DNA from: a virus
Direction: 5' to 3' (one strand)
IMG/VR virus record: IMGVR_UViG_3300032018_000001
Coordinates: 62,001-126,000 of that record
DNA: 64,000 nucleotides
The notes below the pieces were generated by a model that did not search any database, was not told the origin of the DNA, and was given only the letters and a program-made list of their open reading frames with translations. The position numbers and the translations under genes are program-made. The first letter of the stretch is position 1. Every line of letters starts with the position of its first letter. Below, in pieces: positions 11,455 through 16,079 of the stretch.

Positions 11455-12366
11455 ATGACTAAGTTTTTCAAGTTTATCTGGGAGCGCATATCCTGGCTGT
11501 TTTCAAATGATTCGTGGCCTGAGCTTACCGCCACAAAGAAGACCAGTGCAGAGCATGATGCCGCATACCGTAAGGGCCTTACTGGGAGTGCTGTAGGCAT
11601 GACAGGCCCTGAAGCTTTAGGGCGCGGCCCCGAGGGCGTGACCGGCATTCAAGGTACTATTGGTATGGCCAGTATTCCTCCCGTAACTGCATATCCTGGT
11701 ACATCCGTGTTTCAGGGGATAAGAATAAGCGAAGCAGCTTTTAATGCCGGGCAGAGCATGGCACAGTCTGCAAGTCTTCCTGGAGACAGACCTGACCCTT
11801 CTTGGCTTAAGATTCAGATTACAGACTTGACAAATCTTCCGTGGAATAAAAACGGACAGCGGTGGAAGAAGGATGTGAATTATAAAAAGGACATTGACAC
11901 AATCATAGTCCATCAGTCTGCGTCCGGTAGCAAGGATGACCTGGATGGAATCAATCTGTACCAAATCACCGGCCCAAATCATTTAGGGCCTGAGGGAGCC
12001 CCGCACATCTGCTATGATTACGGAATCCGGAAGAACGGAGAAATCTGTCAGCTGAATGCGCCTGAGGATGTTCTCTGGAGTAATGTTGGTGGCAACATAA
12101 AGGGCATTGCTATTGTGGTAGTAGGAAATTTCACAGCGCACGACCACGAAGGCAAGCTTCTCTACCAGGGAACGGATGAGCCTACGCCTGAGCAAACCAA
12201 AAGCCTTAATCGGTTACTTTATTGGCTTTGTCACGAAAGTGAATTTCATAGCAACCTGAGTGCTTTTCGCGTGTATGGGCATACAGATTTCGGAAAGCCT
12301 ACGTGCCCAGGTGATGTGCTGAATGCCCTGGTTACGGATATAAGACGTGGAGGCTATATTTCATGA
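11455..12366 (+). CDS. N-acetylmuramoyl-L-alanine amidase (endolysin)
   Basis: 303 aa. Amidase_2 domain from about residue 120: zinc ligands H153 (TIIVHQSA), H276 and C284 (YGHTDFGKPTCPG), which cut the lactyl-alanine amide bond of peptidoglycan. The N-terminal ~115 residues are low-complexity, glycine/alanine-rich, and might anchor or delay release; there is no obvious signal peptide. The next gene is a two-helix membrane protein, giving an endolysin-holin pair. SD ACGGAGG precedes the ATG. Confidence 0.88.
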   Translation: MTKFFKFIWERISWLFSNDSWPELTATKKTSAEHDAAYRKGLTGSAVGMTGPEALGRGPEGVTGIQGTIGMASIPPVTAYPGTSVFQGIRISEAAFNAGQSMAQSASLPGDRPDPSWLKIQITDLTNLPWNKNGQRWKKDVNYKKDIDTIIVHQSASGSKDDLDGINLYQITGPNHLGPEGAPHICYDYGIRKNGEICQLNAPEDVLWSNVGGNIKGIAIVVVGNFTAHDHEGKLLYQGTDEPTPEQTKSLNRLLYWLCHESEFHSNLSAFRVYGHTDFGKPTCPGDVLNALVTDIRRGGYIS

Positions 12367-12712: not shown

Positions 12713-12789
12713 GGCCAACAGGGGCGGCACGAATCCCGTGCCACCGCAAATTTGCGAGTACGCAAACTTCGGCAAGCAATTTGTTGTCT
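12713..12789 (+). repeat. attC-like site 1 (left end of array, apparently chimeric)
   Basis: R''-like GGCCAAC at 12713-12719 and R' GTTGTCT at 12783-12789, with a terminal stem TTTGCG-AGTA-CGCAAA followed by CTTCGGC, matching sites 2 and 4. The left and right arms do not pair with each other as they do in sites 2 and 4, and no GTTGGCC cassette start lies upstream. The site looks like a join of two halves. Confidence 0.6.
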
Positions 12790-12841
12790 AAAATAAACCG
12801 GCCAAGACAAGGCCGCCGCCGAAAGGCAGAAAGCGAGAAAA

Positions 12842-13096
12842 ATGGAAGACTGGAAAGAAGCTATCGTGATTATTATCGCCCTGCTTGTTGTTGGCACCTC
12901 TGCCATCAAAGGGTGCCAAACTGTTTATGAAACTGACGCGAAGGTATCTATTACCGCGATGGAAAAGGGCTACACTCATGCAACGGTTAATGGGTCGTCA
13001 ATGATTGTGTGGGTAAAAAAGACGGCGGCGGAAGAGGCCGGTTTACTTCAGACAACAAACGCAAGCCCGGCTCACTCAACCGCAAATGCTAAATAA
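12842..13096 (+). CDS. Cassette 1 gene: membrane-anchored 84-aa protein
   Basis: Sits between attC-like sites 1 and 2. One hydrophobic helix (residues about 7-22, AIVIIIALLVVGTSAI) then a polar domain. Its last ~15 codons (QTTNASPAHSTANAK) are read from attC-like site 2, as often seen in integron cassettes. Leader has AAAGCGAG but only a weak SD. No family recognised. Confidence 0.6.
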   Translation: MEDWKEAIVIIIALLVVGTSAIKGCQTVYETDAKVSITAMEKGYTHATVNGSSMIVWVKKTAAEEAGLLQTTNASPAHSTANAK

Positions 13097-13160
13097 TGGA
13101 TAGGCGGTTTCGTTCGCCCAAATGCGCTATGCGCACTTCGGGCTTGCGCATCCGTTGGGC
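13050..13160 (+). repeat. attC-like site 2
   Basis: R'' AGACAAC (13050-13056), exactly the reverse complement of the R' box of site 1; R' GTTGGGC (13154-13160), fitting the GTTRRRY consensus. Long inner arms CGCAAGCCCG (13060-13069) and CGGGCTTGCG (13139-13148) pair perfectly, and a terminal stem AAATGCGC/GCGCACTT closes the hairpin. Length 111 bp, in the VCR range. Confidence 0.75.
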
Positions 13161-13217
13161 AAAATAAAACTACGCGCAAGGCAAAGAAGCGCGGCTTTCA
13201 GCCTCGGAGGAAATAAA

Positions 13218-13310
13218 ATGGAACAAGAAAAATGCAAAAACACAATCTGTAAATACAATAACGATGGACACTTGATTGGAACTATGTTGCGAAAGAAAAA
13301 GAGCGCGTAG
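13218..13310 (+). CDS. Cassette 2 gene: 30-aa miniprotein
   Basis: SD CGGAGG and ATG 13218, between attC-like sites 2 and 3. MEQEKCKNTICKYNNDG... is short and basic with CxxxxC. The only plausible ORF in this cassette. Function unknown. Confidence 0.45.
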   Translation: MEQEKCKNTICKYNNDGHLIGTMLRKKKSA

Positions 13311-13319
13311 TTTTAAATC

Positions 13320-13377
13320 GCCCAACAACCGGCTTGGCGGCTCCGGTGGACAAGCCACCTACGACCCAACGTTGTGC
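13320..13377 (+). repeat. attC-like site 3 (short type)
   Basis: 58 bp. R'' GCCCAAC (13320-13326) is the exact reverse complement of the R' of site 2 and fits RYYYAAC. R' is GTTGTGC (13371-13377). Inner arms GGCTTG/CAAGCC pair. The length equals that of classic short attC sites (about 60 bp). Confidence 0.72.
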
Positions 13378-13425
13378 GCAAAATTGGCCGAAAGACATTA
13401 AAGGCATCGCGCCGGAAAGACAAAA

Positions 13426-13728
13426 ATGATAAAAACAAAGTTGGTGCAAAAGATAGGTGAATTTAATCTTGAGAAAAGAGTGGTAGTGAATCCCCCGTAC
13501 ACGGTTTACGGGCACAGCACATTATTGCCGTCATTTTCTATGTCTATGAAGGTTGGTGGGCTTCGGAAAATGTTGGTCGGGTTAGCTGACGAAGATTCTT
13601 TCGGAATAACTGTATCCGATAAAATGACAGAATACACCATTGTAAAGAAATTAAAGACCGGCGCGAAATCATCGGCCAATTCAGCGCACAACAAACCCCA
13701 TGCCGGTTCATTCGGCGGGAGAGAATAG
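13426..13728 (+). CDS. Cassette 3 gene: hypothetical 100-aa protein
   Basis: Between attC-like sites 3 and 4; its last ~14 codons lie within site 4. No strong SD (AGACAAAA before ATG), typical of cassettes. Beta-rich middle (TVYGHSTLLPSFSMSMKVGG split here), no recognised domain. Confidence 0.6.
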   Translation: MIKTKLVQKIGEFNLEKRVVVNPPYTVYGHSTLLPSFSMSMKVGGLRKMLVGLADEDSFGITVSDKMTEYTIVKKLKTGAKSSANSAHNKPHAGSFGGRE

Positions 13729-13799
13729 ATAATGGAAAACCCGCCTCATTCACCCAAATGCGCCAGGAGCGCACTTCGGCATGGGGCGGTCCGTTGTGT
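13686..13799 (+). repeat. attC-like site 4
   Basis: R'' GCACAAC (13686-13692) is the exact reverse complement of the R' of site 3; R' GTTGTGT (13793-13799). Inner arms CCCCATGCCG (13696-13705) and CGGCATGGGG (13777-13786) pair perfectly. The terminal stem AAATGCGC...GCGCACTTCGG is nearly identical to site 2. Length 114 bp. Confidence 0.75.
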
Positions 13800-13858
13800 T
13801 CAATTAAACCGTGCCAATACCAAAGGCACAACGCGGCCAAGGCCGCTGAAAGGATAAG

Positions 13859-14101
13859 ATGGAGCAAAAATCTTTTTGGATGATTGAAAAGCCTATCAAC
13901 GGTGTCGCTCATTGGTGGGTACGCAGAGAAGGGCAAAACGAATACTGGGATAACCCAGACCGATGGACAACTGATCCCAGTAAGGCACGGCATTACCTTT
14001 CCGTAGAAGAAGCTCTGCACGTTATGGGCCATGACATGATTGGTTGCATTGCAACTGAACATCTCTGGATGGACAAAGAAACAAAGGCAGGCACGGTTTA
14101 A
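13859..14101 (+). CDS. Cassette 4 gene: hypothetical 80-aa protein
   Basis: First gene after attC-like site 4. Aromatic-rich (SFWMIEKPINGVAHWWV, EYWDNPDRW), suggesting a small compact domain; contains HVMGHDMIGC. No family recognised. Leader GCGGCCAAGGCCGCTGAAAGG resembles the leader of cassette 1. Confidence 0.6.
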   Translation: MEQKSFWMIEKPINGVAHWWVRREGQNEYWDNPDRWTTDPSKARHYLSVEEALHVMGHDMIGCIATEHLWMDKETKAGTV

Positions 14102-14137
14102 CTAAACGCCGGTTACACCGGCTGAAAGGCGGAGCAG

Positions 14138-14410
14138 ATGAAAAATTATGAGATGTTTGAGCCAAAATTCAAGATGCATGACATCCTGAAAGATACCACA
14201 AACGGAATGAAAGGTAAGTGTCTCGGTGTCACATTTTATTCTACGGGATGTATTCATTATGGGCTTGCCCCTCTCAAGGCAAAGCCGGACGGAACGCAAC
14301 CGGACTGGTTCTGGCTTGATGAAACACGGGTTGGCTTGGTTCAGTCGGCAAAAATTCAGAAGTTGGAAAAACCACATTCCGGGCCGGATATGAATCCGAG
14401 AATGCAATAA
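14138..14410 (+). CDS. Hypothetical 90-aa protein
   Basis: AAAGGCGGAG precedes the ATG. Contains GMKGKCLGVTFYSTGCIHYG and PDWFWLDETRV, compatible with a small SH3-like beta-barrel, but I cannot name a family. It may be the second gene of cassette 4, since ACACAAC (the expected R'' partner of site 4) occurs at 14433. Confidence 0.6.
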   Translation: MKNYEMFEPKFKMHDILKDTTNGMKGKCLGVTFYSTGCIHYGLAPLKAKPDGTQPDWFWLDETRVGLVQSAKIQKLEKPHSGPDMNPRMQ

Positions 14411-14498
14411 AGGCAGCGCAACTTTTAACTAAACACAACAAACTAAAGGGCGGATCACATGCTCGCATGTTCGACCTACATGGTTTTAAAAATTGATT

Positions 14499-14636
14499 AT
14501 GGGAAAAACCACGTCGCCCTTAGGTTATGGCGACATCGCAGGCGGGGAATGTGTTGTCGGGTGCGACGCAGAGGCTAAGGTTGTATCAATCGAAATCCTT
14601 GAGGATGGAAAAGTCATAGACAGTTTCAAAGCTTAA
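14499..14636 (+). CDS. Hypothetical 45-aa protein
   Basis: ATG 14499 to TAA 14634. GYGDIAGGECVVGCDAEAK followed by a beta-hairpin-like VVSIEILEDGKVIDSF looks like a genuine small protein. A competing frame from ATG 14460 has the better SD (AAAGGGCGG) but encodes an Arg-rich, less convincing 38-aa peptide. Immediately precedes the structured RNA. Confidence 0.4.
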   Translation: MGKTTSPLGYGDIAGGECVVGCDAEAKVVSIEILEDGKVIDSFKA

Positions 14637-14640
14637 AAAG

Positions 14641-14810
14641 GCAGTCTGAGCCGTGGGTGCGCAATCGTGCCCCTGCGCAGCGCACATCTTGCCCGGCATC
14701 TTTTTTCGCGGCTGATGAGGTAGTAACGCCACCGAAACGCCTTAAAGGCGTACCGCGGAGTGGCCCACGCCGGGGAATAACTGGCCACCAGGGGGCACGG
14801 CTCAGGCTGC
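14641..14810 (+). ncRNA. Structured RNA domain enclosing a hammerhead ribozyme
   Basis: A 15-bp closing helix (14641-14655 with 14796-14810, one T-G pair) frames about 170 nt. Inside are GTGCGC/GCGCAC (14657/14680), CCCGGC/GCCGGG (14692/14769) and CTGG/CCAG (14781/14788). GTGGCC (14760) can pair with GGCCAC (14783), crossing the previous helix as a pseudoknot. The density of long GC helices is far above its surroundings and the segment has no convincing ORF. I do not recognise the outer fold as a known RNA class. Confidence 0.65.
14707..14757 (+). ncRNA. Hammerhead ribozyme (type I topology)
   Basis: All core elements are present in order. Stem I is CGCGG (14707-14711) with CCGCG (14753-14757). 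CTGATGA is at 14712-14718. Stem II is GGT/ACC with a 9-nt loop. GAA is at 14734-14736. Stem III is ACGCC/GGCGT with loop TTAAA, with A15.1-U16.1 as required. Cleavage is expected after A14752 (GUA, an allowed NUH triplet). The open end is at stem I. Self-cleavage would release a downstream RNA beginning CCGCGGAG, about 85 nt before the next gene. Confidence 0.85.
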
Positions 14811-15413: not shown

Positions 15414-16079
15414 GTGAAAACAAGAGCGGAGCTTGCAGCTATTTGGGAGTTTGGTTTTCTTGTTTTATTTATTATACTGGCTGGCTGGCTGGCCTTAATG
15501 GTTAAAAAGCAGCAAGTCACCATTGATGCAGCAGAAAGGATTGCTCAGGTGTACAAAGCAGATTCGGTAGAGCTTCACGCTATCAAGGCCACACTCATGC
15601 TGGCCTATGACCTGTCAGACCCAGAGGCGGAATTTTTCGGGTACTGGTTTAACAAAAAATCCAAGCAGTTCAGTATTCCGTGGATGACCTTTGCTGCGGT
15701 TGCTAAGGTTGAATCAGGCTACAATCCCACTGCTACCTCTGAGGCCGGTGCCAAGGGGTACATGCAGATGCTTGATACCACACACCAAGAGCAGTGTCAA
15801 AAGCTGGGTATTCCATTTGTGAAGGGTAAGACTCCATGGATTGATGTAATCAATGTCGTGTGCGGTAGCAACTACTTGGCTGAATCAAAGGATACTACTT
15901 TTGAGGTCATGGTTAAACGCTATCTGGCACCGCTGCATGCTAAGATAAAAAAGCAAGCCAAGAAAGAGCCTGAGAATGTTCAGCTGCAAAAGAAGGCTGC
16001 TACGATTGAGCAGTACTACCATGACGTGCGCCGGGAATTTATGCTGCTGAGCGCTATCTATACCGGGATTAAAAAATGA
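15414..16079 (+). CDS. Membrane-anchored lytic transglycosylase
   Basis: 221 aa from GTG 15414 (GGAG upstream). A hydrophobic helix at residues 12-30 (EFGFLVLFIILAGWLALMV) anchors an SLT domain. The catalytic glutamate is E100 in AKVESGYNPTAT, followed by the family motif AGAKGYMQML. Such enzymes cleave the glycan strand of peptidoglycan, either for local wall opening during DNA entry or for lysis. Next to a two-TM protein (16610), so a second wall-degrading unit besides the amidase at 11455. Confidence 0.85.
   Translation: MKTRAELAAIWEFGFLVLFIILAGWLALMVKKQQVTIDAAERIAQVYKADSVELHAIKATLMLAYDLSDPEAEFFGYWFNKKSKQFSIPWMTFAAVAKVESGYNPTATSEAGAKGYMQMLDTTHQEQCQKLGIPFVKGKTPWIDVINVVCGSNYLAESKDTTFEVMVKRYLAPLHAKIKKQAKKEPENVQLQKKAATIEQYYHDVRREFMLLSAIYTGIKK

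Follow-up and report, generated by a model that had tools for sequence, protein, structure and literature searches.

A chain of cassette-like units with a unit-specific outer helix in the lysis region of a virulent phage

Four cassette-like units form a chain between positions 12783 and 14439 of the 64,000-nt window analysed here, part of IMG/VR virus record IMGVR_UViG_3300032018_000001. Each of the units opens with a GTTNNNN box and closes with the exact complement of that box. Beyond this 7-bp R box, repeat finding revealed that every unit has a 4 × 4 internal loop followed by another helix, specific to the unit and 10, 13, 10 and 12 bp long in units 1–4, respectively, which we refer to here as the outer helix (O). 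The outer helix is a new and unusual part of the array, and was overlooked in the original prediction. The array is probably a CALIN, a cassette array lacking an integrase, that is built from an unusual variant of attC and carried by a virulent phage.

The phage and its chain of units

The virus record comprises 141,806 bases and belongs to a myovirus infecting bacteria. Its first bases are repeated ~127 bp before the record end, and owing to this terminal overlap the genome looks complete. Encoded in it are a family A DNA polymerase, RecA, a DnaB-type helicase, an NAD-dependent ligase and a contractile tail, the sheath of which is 38–44% identical to the sheaths of PhiPA3 and phiKZ relatives. 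Both DNA polymerase A and RecA contain LAGLIDADG inteins (L002, 71–4198 and 6235–8625). At L002 8860–12030 is a 1056-aa protein in which a metallophosphoesterase and an SMC/SbcC-type ATPase are joined, like a fused SbcD and SbcC; hairpins are cut by SbcCD. A 1355-aa protein with collagen-like repeats is located at L003 7187–11254, with several glycosyltransferases close by.

Flanking the array are an endolysin/amidase (11455–12366) on one side and a transglycosylase-type protein (15414–16079) on the other, in agreement with its predicted location within a phage lysis region. Also as predicted, no integron integrase was found: neither TIGR02249 nor PF00589 matched anywhere in the 141.8-kb record, whose ends overlap by ~127 bp, which covers tyrosine recombinases as well. 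An Rfam scan gave no meaningful match in the array. Searches of viral contigs and phage records with the amidase, the transglycosylase, the tail sheath and a cassette protein yielded no close relative and none sharing the array flanks; the nearest tail sheath is 48% identical, and the record that carries it has no amidase match. Downstream of the array, at 14707–14757, is a hammerhead-ribozyme-like core (CTGATGA ... GAAA ... TA, closing stem CGCGG/CCGCG) with a weak match to Rfam HH9 (13.6 bits). The segment 14733–14794 resembles unannotated DNA of Enterobacter phage EhYP, mycobacteriophage Gaia and Arthrobacter phage Constance, and part of it is also matched by Acinetobacter plasmids.

A search for chained attC-like sites returned five consecutive boundaries, at 12713, 13050, 13320, 13686 and 14433, and hence four cassette-like units rather than three. 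The three exact 7-base R'/R'' pairs described originally were recovered with all six boxes in place and their complementarity exact: GTTGTCT (12783) with AGACAAC (13050), GTTGGGC (13154) with GCCCAAC (13320), and GTTGTGC (13371) with GCACAAC (13686). GTTGTGT (13793) and ACACAAC (14433) add a fourth pair, likewise exact. The same-circle rule, by which the R' at the start of a cassette complements the R'' at its end, is therefore seen four times, the fourth R'' being displaced by an insertion.

Each unit contains a short ORF on the plus strand. The ORF of cassette 1 (12842–13096; 84 aa, with a hydrophobic N-terminal segment and no Pfam or PHROG match) extends into site 2, and that of cassette 3 (13426–13728; 100 aa, no family match) extends into site 4, so that the two ORFs said to enter the following site do so. 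The ORFs of cassette 2 (13218–13310; 30 aa) and cassette 4 (13859–14101; 80 aa) both have their stop codon within the right outer helix. None of the cassette proteins matched a Pfam family, and two of them, searched in annotated phages, had no relative there. The 5' leaders of cassettes 1–4 (12790–12841, 13161–13217, 13378–13425 and 13800–13858) look related, each having an O arm followed by an A-rich loop (AAGACAA-like) and a short stretch complementing the O arm locally.

A 327-bp insertion (14108–14434, plus strand), which contains an ORF (14138–14410; PHROG 16275, unknown function), interrupts cassette 4 at its right end. Bordering the insertion is an 11-bp direct repeat, TTTAACTAAAC, with one copy at 14097–14107 and the second at 14424–14434, where the insertion ends. 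On the left of the split is the right O region of the cassette (14090–14107, plus strand), composed of GGCACGGTTTAA (14090–14101) and the first repeat copy; on the right, at 14433–14535 on the plus strand, are the displaced R'' (ACACAAC, 14433–14439) and site 5. Cassette 4 is whole only when the inserted stretch is discounted. Site 5 preserves the fold of sites 2 and 4 in decayed form: a model of that fold matches it with 13.9 bits (E 0.0066 in 2.5 kb), and its fold z-score is −2.8.

The attC-like sites

The reference for the sites was drawn from the loci of integron integrases in 80 bacterial genomes and 80 viral contigs: attC sites chained beside the integrases were collected, and 54 were used. 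A profile of the 10 bases at each site end, built from these 54 independent attCs, was applied to 3,015 candidate pairs per strand. Among the plus-strand pairs, site 3 ranked 1st, site 4 4th and site 2 14th, with plus/minus scores of 21.2/12.4, 19.0/9.7 and 13.6/4.4, respectively, or ~9 bits better on the plus strand. The end signals of the array sites, AAC-AA after R'' and C before GTT, are both common in the reference attCs, and boxes of the RYYYAAC/GTTRRRY type, in relaxed form, occur in sites 2, 3 and 4 and are lacking in site 1. Of the four attC-like sites originally proposed, three are thus upheld by the profile. Site 1 (12713–12789, plus strand) forms the left boundary of the chain together with the cassette 1 R' (12783–12789), contains two hairpins and no L''/L' match, and scores 2.7, the background level; it is not convincingly an attC.

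Sites 2 (13050–13160) and 4 (13686–13799), both on the plus strand, have the perfect 10-bp inner arms that had been noted, and the stem AAATGCGC/GCGCACTT is common to both. Their bottom strands fold into the same Y, consisting of the 10-bp L stem, a stem with TCCATTAT in its loop and a GCGC hairpin, with z-scores of −3.4 (site 2) and −4.4 (site 4); both folds are better than 200 of 200 shuffles. Site 4 retains the fold of site 2 through compensatory changes, 10 of the 34 pairs common to the two sites differing on both sides with pairing kept. The L'' of these 10-bp stems has no extrahelical bases, whereas bulges in L'', which confer strand choice, are usual though not essential in integron attCs; what asymmetry sites 2 and 4 have comes from their unequal spacers (3 nt versus 5–6 nt). 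The exact pattern of the common stem was sought in viral contigs and not found, and as a lead to the host, a model of sites 2 and 4 (R2) was run against ~700 genomes from the phyla of L014 and L047, with no match.

Site 3 (13320–13377, plus strand) is attC-like and of the short type, as had been stated. Unlike sites 2 and 4, its bottom strand folds no better than shuffles, so that the bottom-strand folding expected of the sites is borne out for two of them. Site 3 is the only match of a general covariance model, R1, built from the arms of the 54 reference attCs and distinct from the IntegronFinder and HattCI models. The match is weak (14.3 bits on the plus strand, 8.0 on the minus strand); sites 1, 2, 4 and 5 are missed, and in a scan of the whole record nothing passes E 10. 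The same model finds three sites of phage TJE1 (15.5–23.2 bits) and none in PH101 (first 50 kb) or P12002L at E 10, and R1 is therefore insensitive to long sites.

The outer helix and its distribution

The layout of the ends is the same in all units, and all lie on the plus strand. At the left end of cassette 1 (12783–12803), the R' GTTGTCT is followed by the loop AAAA and the O arm TAAACCGGCC (12794–12803), and at its right end (13036–13056) the O arm GGCCGGTTTA (13036–13045) precedes a 4-nt loop, CTTC, and the R'' AGACAAC. Cassette 2 begins (13154–13177) with GTTGGGC, the loop AAAA and TAAAACTACGCGC (13165–13177), and ends (13303–13326) with the other O arm (13303–13315), a loop and GCCCAAC. 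In cassette 3 the left end (13371–13391) consists of GTTGTGC, the loop GCAA and AATTGGCCGA (13382–13391), and the right end (13672–13692) of TCGGCCAATT (13672–13681), the loop CAGC and GCACAAC. The left end of cassette 4 (13793–13815) has GTTGTGT, the loop TCAA and TTAAACCGTGCC (13804–13815).

The O sequence varies among the units and matches within each of them. When the joined ends are aligned in four rows, with the right end of cassette 4 joined across the 327-bp insertion, all 10 of the compared O pairs change on both sides and 100% of cells are paired, a result equalled in 0 of 500 shuffles. Without joining across the insertion, the O arms of cassette 4 (13804–13815 and 14090–14101) still match over 12 bp. 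When shuffled sequence totalling 2.29 Mb was searched for a box plus a second helix, a single match (at least 8 bp) was obtained, as against three (at least 10 bp) inside 0.9 kb of the array, and an O run of at least 10 at a random place has a frequency of about 1e-4.

At the O position of 87 reference cassettes the longest run is 5 bp, compared with 8–18 bp in phage examples. Searches of IntI loci (80 bacterial, 80 viral and 60 more drawn from two phyla) and of 0.79 Mb from other large phages gave matches to the helix at chance level only. Two candidate matches were rejected, one in L359, which falls within a coding region, and one in Virus Rctr41k, which does not use the attC boxes of that virus. 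In the open-access literature, as far as its text could be consulted, we found no description of an outer helix.

The attCs of chromosomal and mobile integrons (Vibrio-type, class 1-type, Pseudoalteromonas and others) resemble the array sites in their R boxes, AACAA...CGTT signals, same-circle complementarity and bottom-strand fold; they differ in having 5 bp or less at the O position in the 87 reference cassettes. Integron integrases are also found among viruses and bacteria: relatives are encoded by 313 IMG/VR stretches in a scan of viral contigs and occur in 105 of 394 genomes of the phylum of L041, and in Virus Rctr41k (L010, 4683–10100) an integron integrase gene precedes an array of short genes and attC-like sites; this phage record apparently contains a full integron.

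CALINs in phages have been published before, in TJE1, PH101, P12002L and MW202573 (Qi et al. 2023, PMC9892861). As described there, they are like the present array in being integrase-less attC-type sites in virulent phages, with small unknown ORFs or methyltransferases, and some are recombined by IntI1; the cassettes of TJE1 and PH101 differ from it in having no O helix (runs of 3–4). For P12002L, two attC sites were assayed in that study and IntI1 recombined one of them, although the tested sites may differ from the cassettes with an O helix.

Two neighbouring cassettes of Polaribacter phage P12002L, containing a Mom-like gene and a DNA methyltransferase, carry O helices of 12 and 18 bp. They share the R box, 4 × 4 loop and O layout of the array, of which the consulted part of PMC9892861 makes no mention that we found, and differ from it in that the genes lie on the strand opposite to the site orientation. 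The P12002L methyltransferase led to two IMG/VR contigs (L403 and L406) with a 9-bp R, a 4 × 4 loop and O helices of 10 and 8 bp, and to three others (L397, L400 and L401) in which genes of this methyltransferase family are bounded by matching attC-type ends that lack O. A relative of the methyltransferase gene in Cellulophaga phage phi12:1 stands in an ordinary gene row. The methyltransferase is thus in cassette form in several phages, with differing ends (P12002L; IMG/VR 3300029787_000018, 3300028029_000168, 3300024180_000004 and 3300031657_000209). Like the array units, these are single genes between matching attC-type ends, some with R, a 4-nt loop and O; unlike them, O ranges from 18 bp to absent around one gene family. 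One DNA methyltransferase family lies between attC-type ends in L397, L400, L401, L403, L406 and L013, in some with the 5' leader TGACGATAGGAAGGCAAAT, and a second methyltransferase-like gene of L406 has the same leader.

Proposed mechanism and alternative readings

Folding energies were calculated for the bottom strands of cassettes 1–3 with DNA parameters, each site being taken with 20-nt flanks. The array arrangement gives −23.3, −13.2 and −26.1 kcal/mol and the excised circle −37.7, −26.2 and −42.9 kcal/mol, a gain of 13–17 kcal/mol. With one outer arm shuffled, the circle values become −28.7, −13.9 and −28.9 kcal/mol.

Each cassette is one short gene between ends formed by an R box, a 4 × 4 internal loop and an O arm of 10–13 bp. 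In the proposed mechanism, a host integron integrase, the phage having none, would cut the folded bottom strand at G|TT. In the excised circle the two ends would lie side by side, allowing O, R and L to stack as one long hairpin, whereas in the array as much as hundreds of bases, the gene included, separate the two O arms of a cassette, and the arms of adjacent cassettes do not match. Good folding in the circle and poor folding in the array would tip the reaction toward integration and away from excision, and cassettes already integrated would remain stable. It is established for integrons that attC sites recombine as folded single strands, and O should therefore aid integration of a free cassette and give no aid to excision. 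From the energies alone, the outcome would be a bias toward integration over excision.

The reading of the array as a CALIN, which was also the original one, draws on the four exact R'/R'' pairs, the ranks and single orientation of the attC profile, the folds of sites 2 and 4, the covariation of O, the circle energies, the lack of IntI or another tyrosine recombinase, and the O helix on two cassettes of P12002L, a phage with an attC site recombined by IntI1. Weighing against it are the weak covariance score, the L'' without bulges, the fold of site 3, the split in cassette 4, the missing integrase and the lack of a relative with cassette gain or loss. We advance more tentatively a specific form of it, in which the outer helix marks a phage-adapted class of cassettes with a site that would be complete in the excised circle alone, as a built-in switch toward capture and away from loss. 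The pairing of the ends is perhaps also a footprint of cassette birth.

Chance, or hairpins of an ordinary kind that lie between small phage genes and are mistaken for attC sites, might account for site 1, which scores at background, and for the fact that no site reaches 20 bits with the 54-attC model, 20 bits being the attC covariance cut-off, for a different model, in PMC9892861. Four exact box pairs with four covarying O helices at equal offset, however, together with the single comparable match in shuffled sequence and the result of the column shuffles, render such an account highly improbable, and for the pairing itself chance is excluded. The pairing could instead act in the transcript, joining the 5' and 3' ends of the mRNA and controlling its stability or translation with no recombination, the Y elements being RNA structures. 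The ends are equally complementary in RNA and DNA, all genes lie on one strand, every 5' leader can form a local hairpin with part of its O arm, and the hammerhead-ribozyme-like core is directly downstream. This account is nevertheless unlikely, as it leaves unexplained the attC end-box consensus with its one preferred orientation, the reversed gene orientation relative to the site in P12002L, and the presence in several phages of one methyltransferase gene between attC-type ends with or without O.

Movement by another recombinase, from the host or a helper, that reads R and O in place of R and L would make the likeness to attC convergent or ancestral. It would fit the observations that the pairing of O together with R is longer and more regular than any other, that the L stems are atypical, with no clear one in site 3, and that the genome lacks IntI. 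No such recombinase was found in the genome, however, and we know of none that reads R and O; the boxes beside the expected cut, moreover, match the attC consensus, and we regard this possibility as distinctly unlikely.

Among the open questions about cassettes are their origin and the factors that decide how integration is balanced against excision. A third covarying helix that would form only in the circle makes this balance directly testable. The combination of an R box, a 4-nt loop and an O helix would also be a strong and cheap annotation signal for cassettes missed by attC models. The array suggests that lytic phages hold a distinct form of cassette, beyond passive carriage.
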